From positions 1-27,695 of the IMG/VR virus record IMGVR_UViG_3300009156_000021: DNA of 27,695 nt; one strand, 5' to 3'. The notes under the pieces are model-generated. The model worked only from the letters and a program-made list of their open reading frames with translations. It was not told the DNA's origin and made no database searches. Positions 1-27,695 of the stretch are shown one piece after another. The position numbers and the translations under genes were made by a program. Each line of letters opens with the position of its first letter. The first letter of the stretch is position 1. This DNA is from a virus.

Positions 1-123
1 ACGAGAAGCCCTATGACCGTGTGACGCTCGATGAGAACGGGGCCGAGAAGGTAGAGCGTGTCGAGCCCTGGGAAGTGAGGGCGACTGGAAAGAAGGTCCA
101 GGAACTCAAGGGGGCCTTCAAGG
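1..123. repeat. Terminal direct repeat, left copy
   Basis: The first 123 bases are identical to bases 27573-27695. This shows that the contig closes on itself. It may be the assembler's overlap on a circular or circularly permuted genome, or a true short terminal repeat of a linear virion DNA. The sequence alone cannot separate these. A gene reads straight through the junction, which favours simple circular closure. Confidence 0.97.
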
Positions 124-17825: not shown

Positions 17826-17854
17826 ACGATATCCATCTAACGTGCGCACGTCAA
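17826..17854 (-). promoter_or_regulatory. Leftward internal promoter with palindromic operator candidate
   Basis: On the minus strand, TTGACG, a 17-base spacer and TATCGT fit a sigma70-type promoter (5/6 and 4/6 matches). The 12-base perfect palindrome ACGTGCGCACGT (17840-17851) covers part of the -35 box and the spacer start. A dimeric regulator bound there would block polymerase. It would drive the zinc-protein/ERF/initiator block. Confidence 0.5.
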
Positions 17855-19944: not shown

Positions 19945-21478
19945 GGAATTCAGGGCCCGAGCTCGCACCTCTCCCTGGCTCGCCTACCCCCTAACCGCCG
20001 TTCCCAAGCTCCTCCCGTGGCACGAGTCGAAGAGCCACTATAGGGTCCTCTCCGGACCCAACGGAGGAGGCAAATCCACCGCCGGAGCCGCCGATTTCGT
20101 CTCCTATGCGCTCGGCTATAACCCCTTACGAGACGAGCACTACGAGACCCCGAACGTATGTTGGGCGGTTTGCGTGGAATACAACTCCTCAGGCCGTGTC
20201 ATGTTCCGGAAGATCTCGGACATGCTCCCCCGAGACCGTAACGGGAAGCCCCGATGGAAGTTCTACAAGCAAGAACACCTGTTTGTCCTCGATAACGGCT
20301 CCCATATCGCCCTCAAAAGCCAAAAAGAGGGCGAATCCAGCCTCTTGGCCGAGCGTTGTCGCGCCATCTGGATCGATGAAGCCATGGGCGGCGAAAGGGG
20401 AGAGGAGAACTTCGGAGAACTTCAGGCCCGAGGGCTCCCAGATCAGCCCCTAGACATGCTTTTCACGCTCACACCCAAGATGGACATCGGGTTGGACTGG
20501 ATGAGGCGCAAACTATGGTGCGAACCAGGCCAAGAACCCCACGAAGACTTCATTCCAGGAACCTTTTGCCTCCGATTCGAGCTCAACGACTGTCTCAAGG
20601 AAAACGGAGGCTATCTTTCGAGGGAATACGTCGCGCAACGAGAGGCTACGGTCGATCCCGACGAACGAGAGGCCCGAATCCTGGGGCTTTGGACCCCGTT
20701 CATGTCCCGGCCCGCGTTTTCCTTCCGTCTCTTGCTTGAAGCCGCCAACCGTGCCCCCAAAACCGAGTCGGTACGGTTCAAGGGGTCCCCCTTCTCCGGC
20801 TATAAGATGGAGGTCTGCTCAGGTGGCCCGAACCGAATGCAAAGGGACCGTCAAACCGCACATTCGAACATCGCAGCCTGGGACCCGTCCTCAGGACTCG
20901 GAAAAGGTCACGACAACTCCGCTTTTTCCGTCTTTGATCGCGGGGATCTATGCCAGGTGTTTCACGCCACTGCCAACGACATGGGTCCAGACCAATACCT
21001 TCGGGAAATCGTCCTGCCTGCCTGCTACTACTATAATGAAGCCCTCCTCGCCATCGAGGTCAACGGGGAAGGCGGCGCCGCGGCCCTCCAAGCGGCCAAG
21101 GAAAGCGGATACCCCAACCTCTATATGCAAAAGAACCTAGAAAAAGCCGGAGATCCCTATCTCGACAAGTGGGGGTGGCGCACCACGGAACAGAGTAGGG
21201 GCCGGATGATGGACGCCATGCAGAGGGCCTTAAAAGAGAACAAATGGACCCCCAGTAGGGATTTGGTCGAGGAAATGGGCCACGTCATGAAGAAAATGAT
21301 GCCCTCCGGGAAGATCCGTATCGAGCACGCAGACGGCTTCCACGACGACTTGACCATGGCCTCGGCGATCGCCCTCGCCATCCACTACGAAGAGCCGCTT
21401 TATGAGTGGCCCGATTTCAACACGCTTCGGGTCCGGTACGGCCCTACGAGAACCCTTCAAGAACTGCCCTTTACGTGA
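19925..21478 (+). CDS. terL: Terminase large subunit
   Basis: This encodes 517 residues from the TTG at 19925. The ATG at 19850 would overlap the small subunit by 95 bases and add a Ser-rich tail. The ATPase has Walker A GPNGGGKST (residues 44-52) and Walker B AIWIDEA (about 147-153). The nuclease acidic residues are D320 in AAWDPSSG, E378 in AIEVNGEG and the HDD at 473-475. It cuts concatemers and pumps DNA into the prohead with the portal. It ends in a GTGA overlap with the first glycosyltransferase. Confidence 0.92.
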   Translation: MSNPLLEEFRARARTSPWLAYPLTAVPKLLPWHESKSHYRVLSGPNGGGKSTAGAADFVSYALGYNPLRDEHYETPNVCWAVCVEYNSSGRVMFRKISDMLPRDRNGKPRWKFYKQEHLFVLDNGSHIALKSQKEGESSLLAERCRAIWIDEAMGGERGEENFGELQARGLPDQPLDMLFTLTPKMDIGLDWMRRKLWCEPGQEPHEDFIPGTFCLRFELNDCLKENGGYLSREYVAQREATVDPDEREARILGLWTPFMSRPAFSFRLLLEAANRAPKTESVRFKGSPFSGYKMEVCSGGPNRMQRDRQTAHSNIAAWDPSSGLGKGHDNSAFSVFDRGDLCQVFHATANDMGPDQYLREIVLPACYYYNEALLAIEVNGEGGAAALQAAKESGYPNLYMQKNLEKAGDPYLDKWGWRTTEQSRGRMMDAMQRALKENKWTPSRDLVEEMGHVMKKMMPSGKIRIEHADGFHDDLTMASAIALAIHYEEPLYEWPDFNTLRVRYGPTRTLQELPFT

Positions 21479-21978
21479 GCCTATCGATCATCGTCCCCAC
21501 CATGGGCCGGGACACCCTCTCGAGGACCCTAGCCTCCGTCTCCCCGCAGCTCTGGCCCGGAGACGAGATCCTAGTCCTTAGGGACGAGACCCGAGACTCG
21601 GGAAACACCCCTCGAGACCGGGCCATGAAACAAGCCTCCGGGACCCACCTTTGGTTCCTGGACGATGACGATATGGCTACCCCGGACGCGCTCCGGTTCC
21701 TGAGACAAGCCGCCCGTCCCCAAACAATGTCCTGCTTCAAGATGCTCTATGGTGGAAGGTCTGAGGAGCCGGGCCGGATTCTCTGGGAACGCCCGAAGCT
21801 CGAGCCCGGCAACGTGGGGACCCCTTGCTGCCTCATCCCGAATCTACCCAATCTGCCATCCTGGACTGAGGCCAATGATGAGCTCATCTTCTCGGATATC
21901 CGGTTTCTGATGAAGGTGGAACGCCTCTGCTCAAACCTGACCTGGGAGGATAGCGTCGTGGCTATCATTCGGCCTTGA
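21475..21978 (+). CDS. GT-A family (GT2-like) glycosyltransferase
   Basis: This encodes 167 residues from the GTG overlapping the terminase TGA. LSIIVPTMGRDTLSRTLASV opens the nucleotide-sugar domain. RDRAMKQASGTHLWFLDDDD (residues 47-66) carries the acidic metal site. At 167 residues it is short and may be a minimal catalytic domain or work with the next protein. It probably adds sugars to a virion protein or alters the host surface. The substrate is unknown. TTGA overlap joins it to its neighbour. Confidence 0.8.
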   Translation: MSLSIIVPTMGRDTLSRTLASVSPQLWPGDEILVLRDETRDSGNTPRDRAMKQASGTHLWFLDDDDMATPDALRFLRQAARPQTMSCFKMLYGGRSEEPGRILWERPKLEPGNVGTPCCLIPNLPNLPSWTEANDELIFSDIRFLMKVERLCSNLTWEDSVVAIIRP

Positions 21979-22553
21979 TCTACCACTTCACGCCCTTCTT
22001 TAAGGGGGACATCTCCGAGGGGATCAATCGCTCCGTCGAGGCGGTTCCCGACGACGCCTGGATCTGTATCCGGGACGCGGACACCATGTTCCTCACCTGG
22101 AAGCAACAGTGGCAGCTCGAGGAGATCACCCAAAAGACCGACTTCGGACTCCTGGGATGCCTCACAAACCGATGCTACCCAACGTATTGCATGTACGAAG
22201 GCAAACTCAGCGAGAACTACGACATCCTCTATCATGTGGATCTGGCGAAACGGCTCGAGAAGGAACACTGGGGCGAGGTCGAAGATGCGGTCGAATTGGG
22301 ATCGAAAGACGGCTCGGAAGGTCTCCTCTATGGACAGTTCCTCCTCTTCCCGAAGAAGGTCTGGAAGGAGGTCGGAGGATTCCAGGGCCATATCAACCAT
22401 GACTTTGAGTTCTCGAGGCGAGTCCTCAAGGCTGGCCACAGGCTCGGGGTCGCCACTGGGGTCTACATCTTCCATGCCTTCCGGCCTGGGGTGAAGATCC
22501 CCTGGTTTGAAGCCAACCTGGACGCCTCCCTTCTCGATGAGTGTGCCAGATAG
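21975..22553 (+). CDS. Second glycosyltransferase (GT-A-like)
   Basis: This encodes 192 residues from a TTG overlapping the previous TGA. DDAWICIRDADTMFL (DAD at residues 34-36) gives the metal site. LGCLTNRCYP follows, and the end GHRLGVATGVYIFHAFRPG has the usual His of phage and cellular GT-A enzymes. It differs clearly from the first GT, so the two are not tandem duplicates. Both lie inside the packaging module, ahead of a new promoter. Confidence 0.8.
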   Translation: MIYHFTPFFKGDISEGINRSVEAVPDDAWICIRDADTMFLTWKQQWQLEEITQKTDFGLLGCLTNRCYPTYCMYEGKLSENYDILYHVDLAKRLEKEHWGEVEDAVELGSKDGSEGLLYGQFLLFPKKVWKEVGGFQGHINHDFEFSRRVLKAGHRLGVATGVYIFHAFRPGVKIPWFEANLDASLLDECAR

Positions 22554-22594
22554 TCTCAAAAAAGATTGACGTGAGACAAAATGGCTCATATACC
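22553..22594 (+). promoter_or_regulatory. Portal promoter with flanking inverted repeat; leaderless start
   Basis: TTGACG (22566-22571), 17 bases and TATACC (22589-22594) form a sigma70-type promoter (5/6 and 4/6). The inverted repeat GTCTCA (22553-22558) and TGAGAC (22572-22577) brackets the -35 box, as an operator would. Transcription should begin about 22601-22603, at the portal ATG, and no Shine-Dalgarno sequence is present. The message is therefore probably leaderless. Confidence 0.62.
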
Positions 22595-22602
22595 CTTGCG
22601 GC

Positions 22603-24537
22603 ATGGCCTATACGCAAGAGAGCCTTCAGTCGGTCCAAGAAGCGTCCCCGCCTCCGTTAAGCACTCCCCCAGTCCGAGATTCCGACACTCCATCCTACCG
22701 ATACGCGAAAGCCCTGGTTGAAACCGCTCGAGCCGGGTCCCAGGACCGGATCAAGTCCTTCAAGAACAACTGGGACTGGCTCGTAGGCAAAAACCAGTTC
22801 ACCAACTGGCCCTCGAAGACCGCAACGTCTCAATGGCAGTTCCAGGGTGTGGTCAATATGACCTGGAGCACCATCCGCACCAAAGCCGCCATGCTGACCT
22901 CTCACGATACCGAACTCTTCGTAGACCCGCTCGATGAGGAGTCTAGTTACCTCGATCGGCTCCTCATCAAGAGTGCCAACGAACACGAAGCCGCTCGGAC
23001 TCGATTCGCAGACGTGAAGGAACGGGTCTATATGTCGGGCTCGGTAACCGGAGTCGGTATCTCGATGTGGTCGGCTCGGCCTGACCCCCTGACCGGAGCC
23101 ATGATCCTAGCGAGGACTCCGGTACCGTCCGATGAGTTCATGCGGGACCCGTCCGTCGATTCCATCACAAGCCCCAACTGTCGCTTCGTCGTGTGGTGCC
23201 CTCTCCTCGATATGTCCACCGTGCGGGATATGTTCCCGTCCAAAGCCCCGTTCGTGAAAACCGAGAATCGCCAAGTGGTCGGAGGCTGGACCTACTCGAC
23301 CACCAACGATGAGAACCTGATCTACGGTACCGCGGGGGACTACACCGTAGACAAGCAAGGTGCCCTGAATGCTCGGAAGGCTCGGGTCAACTTCATATGG
23401 GTGAAGGACGAATCGATCATCGAGGACATCCAAAAGGTCCTGATCGAAAAGGGCGGGGAAGGCTTCTACTGCGACGTCTGCGATACGATCTACACCAATA
23501 ACCAAGTCCAGAATACCCGGTGCCCCACCTGCAATCAGGAAATGGAGCCTACCCGCACCGAAGACCAGTATTCCGAGAACACAACGATTAGTCGCCAATA
23601 TCCCTATGGCCGGCTCCTCGTCTACTCGGGAGACACGCTTCTCTACGACGGAGAAAACCCGCTCGAGATCGAAGAGGTCTTCCCGTTTGCGGTCTATCAC
23701 CACGACCCGATACCGGGAGACTTCTACGGATCCAACGACGTGGAGCTTTTGCAGTCCCTTCAAGACGCCGAGAACCGGACCGTATGCCAGTTGATCGACT
23801 ATGTTCGGCTGAGCGTGAACGGTCCCTTTGTCTATCCCATCAGTTGCAAGAGCTTCACAACGATGGGGAACGGTCCCGGAGAGCGTCATCCCGTCCCTGA
23901 CCACCTAGTGCAGGGGCCCCACTTCGTGTCGCCCCAGAACTTCAATACCCAGGCGTGGGGCGCTCTCCACGGGGCTTTGATGCAGCACTTCCAGATCGTA
24001 TCGGGCCTGGGACAGATCGGCTCCGGGATGTCCTCAAGTCCCCCCATCTCAGCGACCGAAGCCGAGATCTCGAATGCTCGCCTCTCGGACCGGATGAAGG
24101 GCCACGCTCGAGGGCTCGCACAGTGGGCCACGGACGATTTCAATATCCAGAATCAATTGATGCGCCAGTTCTACGACAAGCCGATCCAGGTGGCCGTGAC
24201 GATGCCGGACTCCTCGATCAAGTCGATTGAAGTCGAAGTCCAGAAACTCCCCAGTGCTCGTGTGAGGATCGTGGTATCGACCGAGGAGACGTTGAAGGAC
24301 AAGCTGAGCGGACAAAACGCGATGCAGATGGCGACCACCGGACTTCTCAATTCCCCCTATGCGGATCTCTTCTTGGGGAAGGCTGGATTCACCCCAACCG
24401 AGATCAAAGAGTTCGAGGACCGCAGAGGGCTACATCAGGAGATGGCCGGCCCTCAAGCCGCCGCTCCGGACCTATCTCTAGTCCAAGGAGGCACGGATGC
24501 CCAACTACAGCCTGAACAATTCGGTCCCGGAGCCTGA
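22603..24537 (+). CDS. Portal protein with zinc-ribbon insertion
   Basis: This encodes 644 residues from an ATG without a ribosome-binding site. It has the size and layout of P22-type portals: a variable N-terminus, RYAKALVETARAGSQDRIKSFKNNWDWL, and a long helical stem region with NARLSDRMKGHARGLAQWATDDFN near residues 490-515. Residues 290-310 hold C290-x2-C293 and C307-x2-C310, a zinc ribbon. The C-terminus (from about 600) is a flexible Gln/Ala-rich tail. The portal forms the dodecameric DNA channel at the capsid vertex. Confidence 0.87.
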   Translation: MAYTQESLQSVQEASPPPLSTPPVRDSDTPSYRYAKALVETARAGSQDRIKSFKNNWDWLVGKNQFTNWPSKTATSQWQFQGVVNMTWSTIRTKAAMLTSHDTELFVDPLDEESSYLDRLLIKSANEHEAARTRFADVKERVYMSGSVTGVGISMWSARPDPLTGAMILARTPVPSDEFMRDPSVDSITSPNCRFVVWCPLLDMSTVRDMFPSKAPFVKTENRQVVGGWTYSTTNDENLIYGTAGDYTVDKQGALNARKARVNFIWVKDESIIEDIQKVLIEKGGEGFYCDVCDTIYTNNQVQNTRCPTCNQEMEPTRTEDQYSENTTISRQYPYGRLLVYSGDTLLYDGENPLEIEEVFPFAVYHHDPIPGDFYGSNDVELLQSLQDAENRTVCQLIDYVRLSVNGPFVYPISCKSFTTMGNGPGERHPVPDHLVQGPHFVSPQNFNTQAWGALHGALMQHFQIVSGLGQIGSGMSSSPPISATEAEISNARLSDRMKGHARGLAQWATDDFNIQNQLMRQFYDKPIQVAVTMPDSSIKSIEVEVQKLPSARVRIVVSTEETLKDKLSGQNAMQMATTGLLNSPYADLFLGKAGFTPTEIKEFEDRRGLHQEMAGPQAAAPDLSLVQGGTDAQLQPEQFGPGA

Positions 24538-24730
24538 TCGGTCCCTTGAGGACAAGGGCTTCAACGGTCTTTCAGTGACGAACCCACCTACAGCCTATGA
24601 GACTGGCGCATTCGGCCCACCGCCGAATCAGTTGACGAGCCCGCTCACCAACGAGGTGAACGAGTCATCGAACACAGAGACGAAAGGCCTCGGTCCCGCG
24701 GCGGGAGACTTTGCACGGAGGGGGTACTAG
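24497..24730 (+). CDS. Small disordered protein overlapping the portal end
   Basis: This encodes 77 residues. GGAGGCACGG precedes the ATG, which overlaps the portal C-terminus by 41 bases in another frame. It is rich in Asn, Pro, Ser and Thr, without predicted structure, and has a short basic end. It may be a capsid assembly aid or minor head protein. No family is recognised. Confidence 0.65.
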   Translation: MPNYSLNNSVPEPDRSLEDKGFNGLSVTNPPTAYETGAFGPPPNQLTSPLTNEVNESSNTETKGLGPAAGDFARRGY

Positions 24731-24919
24731 ATGGCGTTCAAAGAGGGAGTCCAGGAAGAGCACGTCCACGCTTTTCGTGCTCTGGTTACCGCGATGAAGA
24801 GCCTCGATGAGCAAATCGACGCAGGCCAGGTCACACCGTCGGAAGCACTCGACAAGGCCGTCGACCTCATCAATGCCACCGGCATTCCCGCCGAAAAGAA
24901 GAAGAAGGAGAAGGCCTGA
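24731..24919 (+). CDS. Small helical protein with Lys tail
   Basis: This encodes 62 residues, with GGAGGGGG upstream. Two helices (EEHVHAFRALVTAMKSLDE and PSEALDKAVDLINATG) end in a strongly basic tail (EKKKKEKA). It lies between the portal and the scaffold. It may bind DNA or the scaffold during head assembly, but that is inference. The stop overlaps the next ATG. Confidence 0.65.
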   Translation: MAFKEGVQEEHVHAFRALVTAMKSLDEQIDAGQVTPSEALDKAVDLINATGIPAEKKKKEKA

Positions 24920-25203
24920 TGTCTACCCCCATTCCGGAGTTCGATTCTCTAGCACAGGGAGAAGGCTACGCCAACGTCCCCGCTCCCACGAGTGATGCCG
25001 CAGATACCGCGGGCTGGAGTGATTCCCAGATCCCAAATGTGCCTCAAGGATCTCCGTCTCCGGTCGAGGCGGTGTCTTTGGCGACGTTGAATCATGCGGC
25101 CCCGAATCTGTCCCAGACCTGGAGTAGTGGAGACAAGGGCACCAACTGGATGGGGAATCCGTCCTATCCGACGAGCAAGACCGGAACTGAACCCGTAGCG
25201 TAA
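24919..25203 (+). CDS. Small Pro/Ser-rich hypothetical protein
   Basis: This encodes 94 residues from an ATG overlapping the previous TGA by one base. It is rich in Pro, Ser, Thr, Asn and Trp, with low predicted structure and no Cys. Its position just before the scaffold suggests a head-assembly or decoration role. No family is recognised. Confidence 0.62.
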   Translation: MSTPIPEFDSLAQGEGYANVPAPTSDAADTAGWSDSQIPNVPQGSPSPVEAVSLATLNHAAPNLSQTWSSGDKGTNWMGNPSYPTSKTGTEPVA

Positions 25204-25216
25204 TGAGGGGGATTGT

Positions 25217-26008
25217 GTGAGCGACGAACTAGAGACAAACGAGACACCGGAGACACCGCCGCAGCCTGAATTGGACCCCGCAGCCGCGATCGCTGCCGTG
25301 GCCCAACAGTTCGGGACAACCCCGGAGTTCATAGAGGGTGCGATTCGGACCCAAGAGGAGAATCGACGAGTTGACGCCCAACTCAGGCAGAAGCAAAGGG
25401 AACTAGATCTCAAGGAAGCCCTCATCCGGCAGAGGGAGGAACAGACTCAGTACGCGCCTCCCCAGTCCTATGACGAGCTCGATCCCGTCAGCCGAAAGTT
25501 GATGGAACGTCTCGACAGGATCGACAAGAGAGAAGAAGACCGGATGCGTCGGGAGCAGGAAGCCGTCGAGCGCCAAACCAGGACCCAGGAGATGGCGTTC
25601 GAGATGGAACGGGGCTATGAGTCTGTGATGCGGGCTGTCCCGAGACATAACAAGGTCGATCAAGACCAATTCTTCGCTGCCATGGCTCGGATTTATCCTC
25701 CGACCTCGGACGGGATGCTTCCTCGAGGCATCACGCCCCAAATGGCAGTCGATAACACCGCACGATATCTGGGGTTGGTTCAGAACGGATTAGCCCCGCA
25801 ACCATCCTACGCACCCCGAGACCGAAGGGCGTCGATCACCATACCGGCCAGCCCGACCCAACACCAAAACGGTCGGGATCTGACCGATATCGCCCCCTTG
25901 GACGGGGAAACTGACGAGCAACGCTTAGACCGCCTGACCAGGCTGGCACGAGCTCAGAACATGAGCCTCGCCAATCTTCCGGAAGGGCGCAAGTTTAGCT
26001 CGGGATAA
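25217..26008 (+). CDS. Capsid scaffolding protein
   Basis: This encodes 263 residues from a GTG with GAGGGGG 5 bases upstream. After an acidic N-terminus there is a long coiled-coil stretch (about residues 48-140, very rich in Gln, Glu, Arg and Lys, for example QRELDLKEALIRQREE). A helical and loop C-terminus ends in a basic segment. This is the classic makeup of a phage scaffold, and it lies directly before the major capsid gene. It should guide capsid assembly and then be lost. Confidence 0.77.
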   Translation: MSDELETNETPETPPQPELDPAAAIAAVAQQFGTTPEFIEGAIRTQEENRRVDAQLRQKQRELDLKEALIRQREEQTQYAPPQSYDELDPVSRKLMERLDRIDKREEDRMRREQEAVERQTRTQEMAFEMERGYESVMRAVPRHNKVDQDQFFAAMARIYPPTSDGMLPRGITPQMAVDNTARYLGLVQNGLAPQPSYAPRDRRASITIPASPTQHQNGRDLTDIAPLDGETDEQRLDRLTRLARAQNMSLANLPEGRKFSSG

Positions 26009-26023
26009 GGAGCCGACAAGTAG

Positions 26024-26860
26024 ATGGCTACTGGCAACATTACCCAGACTAGTGCCGCAAAACTCCTCCCAGAGATTTGGGCGGCACAGCCGGAATACCT
26101 CCCGAACAACGTACGAGGCTTTACCAAGTCCATCTGGGATACCGGCGACACCTATGTCGGCCCCGGATTCAAGGTCCACGTCCCGATTGTCCAGACCTAT
26201 GCTGCGTCAGCCTATTCCGGCTCTGTGACGTTCAACAACTTCACGGAGACCGAGATCACGGTCACCCCGACGGTGGCCTATAACGCGATCCAGATCCAGG
26301 AAGACGTGCTCCAGACCATCATGGCCCCTGGAGCGGAGCGAGTCTATAGCCCGGCTCTCGCGGAAGGCCTCTACCAGAAGCCCGACGTGGACGGCCTGAT
26401 CCTGGGCGGAAGCCTCACGAACACGGTCACGGACGCGGGCGCTTGGACCATTGCCAGCTTCCAGACCATCATCTCCACCATCCTCACGCAGGGTGGGGAC
26501 AAGGTGCAGCTCGGCCAGTTAGACGCCTGGTACCACCCTCAGCTCTGGGACACGATCATGGCGACTGCCGATATGTATTCTGCGGCGGTCCGTGGGGAGT
26601 CCAACTCCTCGGCCAAGACAGGAAACATCGGCACCGCGTTCGGCGTGAATATGAACTTCACGAAGAACGTGTTCCTCTCGACCACGCTTCGAAACACCAT
26701 CGTGTCTCGCAAGACGATGATCCTGGTCCGCAAGAACCGCCCCAAGATCGAGATGGAGCGGACGGACCTCACTACCAAGATCGTGGCTTCGATGATGTAC
26801 GGTATCGCCATTCTGCATGATCTGAGTGGCGGGCAGCACCGAGTCACGACCACCACGTAA
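26024..26860 (+). CDS. Major capsid protein
   Basis: This encodes 278 residues. AAGGAG lies 12 bases upstream of the ATG. The sequence is rich in beta-strands and polar turns (VTFNNFTETEITVTPTVAYN, then NAIQIQEDVL), with a helical middle (about residues 105-165) and a conserved-looking C-terminal domain. It fits a short HK97-fold capsid protein. Its place after the scaffold and portal is the standard order. It has no obvious N-terminal processing site. Confidence 0.75.
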   Translation: MATGNITQTSAAKLLPEIWAAQPEYLPNNVRGFTKSIWDTGDTYVGPGFKVHVPIVQTYAASAYSGSVTFNNFTETEITVTPTVAYNAIQIQEDVLQTIMAPGAERVYSPALAEGLYQKPDVDGLILGGSLTNTVTDAGAWTIASFQTIISTILTQGGDKVQLGQLDAWYHPQLWDTIMATADMYSAAVRGESNSSAKTGNIGTAFGVNMNFTKNVFLSTTLRNTIVSRKTMILVRKNRPKIEMERTDLTTKIVASMMYGIAILHDLSGGQHRVTTTT

Positions 26861-26871
26861 GGGAGGCAGTT

Positions 26872-27510
26872 ATGGCGGGGCCGGAAGACACTCTGACATT
26901 CGATCCAAGTCGAACGCCGTTTACGACTCCGGCCCCGCGTTTCACTTACATCCGGCATCCACTTGTTGGGAACATCAAGCTAAACCCGGACACCAAGGTG
27001 GTGGCTCCGATCCCGGACGTGCCGTATCCAAACTACCCAGTCCGTCTTCCGATCGAACTGGCCGAAGTGGATCAGCCGGTCATTCGGACTTGTAGTGAGC
27101 CTGGACCCAGGAACAAGGGTTGCGATGCTGCGGTCAACGGAGGATGCCCCTTGATTCACAAGTACGGAAGAGGGGCTGGGCCGTTCAACATGATTGTGGA
27201 GAAGAACGGTAACGTGGATTCCTCTCCGTGCTTCGCGGTCTACTGCGGCATCACGGATGCAGGGCGTCCCACGTCTCAGGCTCATCTTTTGATGGACGGC
27301 TGGCAGATTTTGGCTGACCGGACCACGACGGAATACGTTGAGACTAAGACCGAAAACGGGCTCAAGACGAGACGGACGGTTCAGATGGAAGTTCCGGATC
27401 TTCCTCCGTTCTATGAGCTCGCCAAGGTGGGACGGTTCGCGGAAGCCAAGGCTCTTCCCAAGAAGAAGGGCAGGCCCAAGAAGGTGGCGGATGTCGGAAC
27501 CGGAGACTGA
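26872..27510 (+). CDS. Cys-rich hypothetical protein after the capsid
   Basis: This encodes 212 residues, with GGGAGGC upstream of the ATG. Five Cys cluster in the middle (C74, C84, C92, C120, C125), with CDAAVNGGCPLIHKYGRG between. This could hold a metal or a cluster, though no known motif fits. The C-terminus is basic and AT-hook-like (KKKGRPKK). It overlaps the junction gene by 20 bases. Function is unknown. A minor head or DNA-binding role is inferred. Confidence 0.68.
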   Translation: MAGPEDTLTFDPSRTPFTTPAPRFTYIRHPLVGNIKLNPDTKVVAPIPDVPYPNYPVRLPIELAEVDQPVIRTCSEPGPRNKGCDAAVNGGCPLIHKYGRGAGPFNMIVEKNGNVDSSPCFAVYCGITDAGRPTSQAHLLMDGWQILADRTTTEYVETKTENGLKTRRTVQMEVPDLPPFYELAKVGRFAEAKALPKKKGRPKKVADVGTGD

Positions 27511-27695
27511 GCCCCACGTCCTAAGGCGGGAGATCATCTCGCAGGACAAGGACGGCACGCTCGAGAAGATCTACGAGAAGCCCTATGACCGTGTGACGCT
27601 CGATGAGAACGGGGCCGAGAAGGTAGAGCGTGTCGAGCCCTGGGAAGTGAGGGCGACTGGAAAGAAGGTCCAGGAACTCAAGGGGGCCTTCAAGG
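27491..27695 (+). CDS. 5' part of the junction-spanning gene
   Basis: The ATG at 27491 overlaps the end of the preceding gene by 20 bases. Reading runs without a stop through the repeated 123 bases and continues at the start of the window to 374. The N-terminal part is acidic then mixed (REIISQDKDGTLEKIYEKP). This supports treating the window as one closed circle with a 151-residue gene across the join. Confidence 0.75.
   Translation, partial: MSEPETEPHVLRREIISQDKDGTLEKIYEKPYDRVTLDENGAEKVERVEPWEVRATGKKVQELKGAFK
27573..27695. repeat. Terminal direct repeat, right copy
   Basis: This is the exact copy of bases 1-123. Removing one copy gives a unique length of 27,572 bases. Confidence 0.97.

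Follow-up and report, generated by a model that had tools for sequence, protein, structure and literature searches.

A conserved promoter predicted to yield leaderless or nearly leaderless mRNA at the portal gene of a group of phages

The locus and its relatives

How is a gene at the head of a virion operon expressed if no Shine-Dalgarno (SD) sequence precedes it? This question is raised by the portal gene in an IMG/VR virus record of 27,695 bases, the whole of which is called the window here. A direct repeat of 123 bases is common to both ends of the window (1-123 and 27573-27695), and thus the window probably represents the complete genome of a phage, circular or circularly permuted. The portal gene (22603-24537, 644 amino acids; plus strand, as all features below unless stated otherwise) matches phrog_156 with E=1.3e-11 and is the first gene of the virion operon. 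Its start codon is aligned in relatives; an ATG at 22581 was discarded as the start because it lies in the wrong frame for the portal and the relatives align at 22603. In the window terL is followed by two glycosyltransferase genes and then by the portal gene. The glycosyltransferase gene at 21975-22553 (phrog_14179, E=5.7e-45), a cargo gene in the interval from terL to the portal promoter, is missing or swapped for something else in other lineages.

Relatives were obtained from portal and capsid searches of IMG/VR and share about 37-67% portal identity with the window. The comparison set consists of 14 non-redundant portal lineages including the window; as the lineages are related, they are not fully independent. 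Searches of the phage collection with the portal and the capsid protein (MCP) as queries returned no cultured relatives, and scans of genome contigs for prophages that could point to a host confirmed no relative. An Rfam scan and a tRNA scan were empty.

A conserved promoter ahead of the portal gene

Upstream of the portal gene lie a -35 element, TTGACG (22566-22571), which agrees with TTGACA in five of six positions, and a -10 element, TATACC (22589-22594), which agrees with TATAAT in four of six and is devoid of the T at -7. The spacer between them is 17 bp. A preliminary description of this DNA called the element a good sigma70-type promoter. As a conserved feature the promoter was borne out, but with a score of 9/12 against the consensus, a weak -10 and the last T of this element absent, "good" is too generous. 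A consensus promoter scan of 20001-27695 listed no promoter; the portal promoter escaped it because the scanner demands a -10 element that ends in T.

Only 8 nt (CTTGCGGC) separate the end of the -10 element at 22594 from the portal ATG at 22603, and no SD match of at least 3 bases is found ahead of this ATG, as had been described before. With this geometry transcription is predicted to start within 22601-22605, either at the portal ATG itself or roughly 2 nt upstream.

The same layout recurs among the relatives. In 12 of the 14 lineages a TTGAC begins 35-42 nt ahead of the portal start codon and is followed by a -10 of the TA type, without an SD. The distance is 37 nt in the window, L018, L049, L008, L011 and L023, 36 nt in L024, 38 nt in L017, 39 nt in L001, 40 nt in L003, 42 nt in L015 and, counted from the ATG at 2953, 35 nt in L062; exactly -37 is reached by 7 of 13 elements if that of L007 (see below) is included. 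By shuffling each upstream region, the chance of such a placement was estimated at about 0.2-2% per lineage, with a start different from the ATG at 2953 being used in the shuffle of L062. An unbiased EM search over 13 lineages recovered a TAT[AT] core downstream of TTGAC with a score of 72.6, where 15 shuffled sets averaged 57.4 (sd 5.2), and in most rows this core is located 17-18 bp from the -35 element. Correspondingly, the spacer measures 17-18 bp in 12 of the 13 tabulated portal promoters and 15 bp in L024. The T at -7 is absent from most lineages. Between lineages the upstream DNA can be aligned only at TTGAC and in scattered columns.

Judged by its sequence, the portal promoter is therefore a real, conserved feature. 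Among lineages with otherwise unalignable upstream DNA the start codon keeps its distance from TTGAC and an SD is consistently missing, which argues strongly for the leaderless portal promoter that had been proposed. In L015 the distance of 42 nt implies a leader of several bases. L020 is degenerate, with TTGAC displaced to -31 and a TTGATT at the correct spacing.

L007 shows a different arrangement. Its portal gene starts with GTG, lacks a TTGAC upstream and has a 13-nt overlap with the glycosyltransferase gene before it. Within 3485-4007 of L007 this glycosyltransferase gene is itself preceded by TTGACT-18-TATAAG-7-GTG, with TTGACT starting 37 nt before the gene. Hence the promoter layout is found one gene further upstream in L007, and its portal is probably translated by coupling.

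The nearest gene recognised upstream of the portal is terL in L008, L011, L017, L024, L049 and L062, and glycosyltransferases are present between terL and the portal gene in the window, L001, L015, L018, L020, L002 and L003. The glycosyltransferases of L002 and L003 are 36% alike; the promoters that follow them are nearly identical. TerL and the promoter seem to enclose a cargo slot in which genes are exchanged. The idea that the promoter divides the packaging and glycosyltransferase genes from the virion genes applies to 12 lineages and fails in L007, where a glycosyltransferase gene is located downstream of it. A temporal separation of structural gene expression by this arrangement is plausible.

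Shine-Dalgarno sequences at portal and capsid genes

In the portal upstream regions across lineages SD matches of 3-5 bases are scattered, and none exceeds 5 bases. The sole 5-base match, TAAGG in L011, overlaps the -10 element. Downstream of the element, 12 of the 13 tabulated portal starts are ATG, with GTG in L024. The capsid gene, which served as a control, behaves differently: an SD match of 4-7 bases was found in 13 of 13 distinct cases, and the start codons are TTG (seven), GTG (three) and ATG (three). SDs precede most genes of the window as well. With SD-led capsid genes throughout, these phages normally use SDs, and the portal gene is the exception. At the capsid gene (26024 in the window) the relatives mostly have TTG or GTG starts and strong SDs.

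Early promoters

Promoters of early genes allow a comparison. In the window two of them were noticed on the minus strand, at 17854 and 18715, with the structures TTGACG-17-TATCGT and TTGACA-17-TACAAG. A perfect palindrome, ACGTGCGCACGT, spans the -35 end and the spacer of the TTGACG-17-TATCGT promoter. The start of the gene downstream of the promoter at 17854 is uncertain. Early promoters in L072, L075 and L078 carry a full -10, either TATCGT or TATCAT. The next start codon follows 44-55 nt downstream, and in L075 and L078 it comes with an SD of 5-6 matching bases. The early promoters of the window and these three lineages are of the same -35 type as the portal promoter, with a fuller -10. This suggests that the late portal promoter is weaker than the early promoters or is assisted.

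Inverted repeat, operator candidates and RNA structure

The preliminary description also proposed that an inverted repeat, GTCTCA (22553-22558) and TGAGAC (22572-22577), brackets the -35 element just as a repressor or activator site would. The two 6-bp arms are indeed exact. However, only the right arm abuts the -35 element, and the left arm, which begins inside the glycosyltransferase stop codon, ends 7 nt upstream of it. Across a 13-bp gap, 6-bp arms come up in 8% of dinucleotide shuffles (p=0.08), and about 14% of sampled 62-nt windows contain arms that are at least as long. The expected number of exact pairs in the window is 0.05 and one was found, a comparison coloured by the pair having been picked after it was seen. 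There is no second exact copy with a gap of 5-30 bases in the genome, and a search of IMG/VR for GTCTCA-N7-TTGACN-TGAGAC retrieved no contig. Moreover, the repeat is absent from the relatives that keep the promoter, including L001 and L015 with 67% and 63% portal identity, respectively, and all others, so that the operator claim fails the check named in the preliminary description. We thus rejected an operator role for GTCTCA/TGAGAC, which appears highly improbable with p=0.08 and no conservation; most likely the repeat is incidental.

A different kind of operator would add to the leaderless promoter rather than replace it. A phage or host protein could act on TGGNNCA/TGNNCCA half-sites or on lineage-specific palindromes and confer late timing. 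TGGNNCA or its complement occurs in nine copies between the -35 element and the start codon of 14 promoter regions, carried by the window, L003 (three), L011 (two), L062 (two) and L023. In the window the half-site, TGGCTCA (22582-22588), lies between the -35 and -10 elements; TGTGCCA, the opposite orientation, is found at 22542-22548 within the end of the glycosyltransferase gene. Both are leads only. At least nine copies of the best pattern were obtained in 9 of 1000 shuffled sets (look-elsewhere P=0.009), but in a gapped-pattern search the number of lineages per pattern (five) was no higher than for the best pattern in shuffles. As copy number exceeds the shuffles and lineage number does not, and as the half-site was noticed post hoc and L003 weighs heavily in the count, it stays a lead, albeit, on weak evidence, a better one than GTCTCA/TGAGAC. 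L003 further carries TGGCACATGTGCCA in its spacer (p=0.012) and its third half-site copy before the ATG. In L023, tandem TTGGGT...ACCCAA repeats of the type TTGGGTgaaaatACCCAA (1859-1896) are located just upstream of the -35 element, and L059 has such repeats in the same place; activator sites or twin hairpins are candidate explanations for them. The weak -10 element would leave space for an activator. On the other side, the half-site is restricted to 5 of 14 lineages, with three copies coming from L003 alone, inverted repeats are not enriched over the 14 lineages (Fisher p=0.31), and a scan of early proteins yielded no recognisable DNA-binding regulator family, many small ORFs being unassigned. 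Regulation of the promoter by an operator is thus conceivable, although we would not expect it on these findings.

The repeats could instead belong to a read-through transcript, as an RNA hairpin acting as a weak terminator or leader structure, with the portal being translated internally. The predicted fold of the read-through RNA has nested stems (-15.6 kcal/mol, z=-1.96), in the outermost of which GCCA from TGTGCCA pairs with TGGC from TGGCTCA. Yet a U tract is absent, the locus has no terminator-like site, and the stem is absent from relatives while the promoter spacing is conserved; a terminator or leader hairpin was discarded on these grounds. Internal translation of the portal also fits poorly with the missing SD in every portal lineage. 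This explanation is improbable.

A model for portal expression

In our view 22566-22603 probably constitutes a sigma70-type promoter for the host RNA polymerase, and the mRNA of the virion operon would have its 5' end at the portal AUG or a few bases from it. Leaderless or nearly leaderless expression of the portal is very likely from the arrangement of the sequence elements. Host RNA polymerase would start at or just before the portal AUG, and ribosomes would bind this 5'-terminal AUG without an SD, while the virion genes after the portal would be SD-led. As the portal lacks an SD, little of it would be made from mRNA that reads through from terL and the glycosyltransferase gene, and most would come from transcripts of its own promoter. 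Virion expression would thereby become independent of the packaging and cargo genes. In addition, a modest promoter together with a leaderless start could hold the portal, of which few copies per virion are needed, below the SD-led capsid protein, which is needed in many, although both are encoded on the same mRNA. One might speculate that leaderless translation of the portal only is an old, selected device which insulates virion expression from the variable cargo slot upstream and keeps the portal at low stoichiometry against the SD-led capsid protein, but we regard this as rather doubtful.

The locus offers a conserved and testable case of a predicted leaderless start at one structural gene in otherwise SD-led phages. 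L007 provides a natural comparison for the benefit that such starts bring to a phage.

Comparison with known systems

A leaderless phage mRNA made from a host sigma70 promoter is known from lambda, where cI is transcribed from PRM. Lambda cI is a repressor gene, whereas here the first gene of the virion operon is concerned. In Thermus phage phiYS40, middle and late mRNAs are leaderless (PMC3594737). The likeness is that later phage genes are transcribed without a leader; however, this holds for most middle and late mRNAs of phiYS40, whereas here the portal is the one clear candidate, SDs being present at the other virion genes that were examined. Cluster O mycobacteriophages have SigA-like promoters that are predicted to yield leaderless mRNA (PMC4351075). 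As here, the prediction was made from sequence, for a sigma70/SigA-type promoter placed such that +1 coincides with the first start-codon base. The promoters concerned are PL1, PR2 and PL2, none of them for a portal gene. The "-10 adjacent to ORF" genes of Deinococcus-Thermus are reported to have a -10 element directly before the ORF and leaderless mRNA (PMC12340547). Those are cellular genes, in contrast to the phage gene considered here, in whose promoter the -35 is the best conserved element. Leaderless late genes of phages are thus already known, and the apparent restriction to the portal, together with its conservation in a group without cultured relatives, seems to be the interesting part of the present case.
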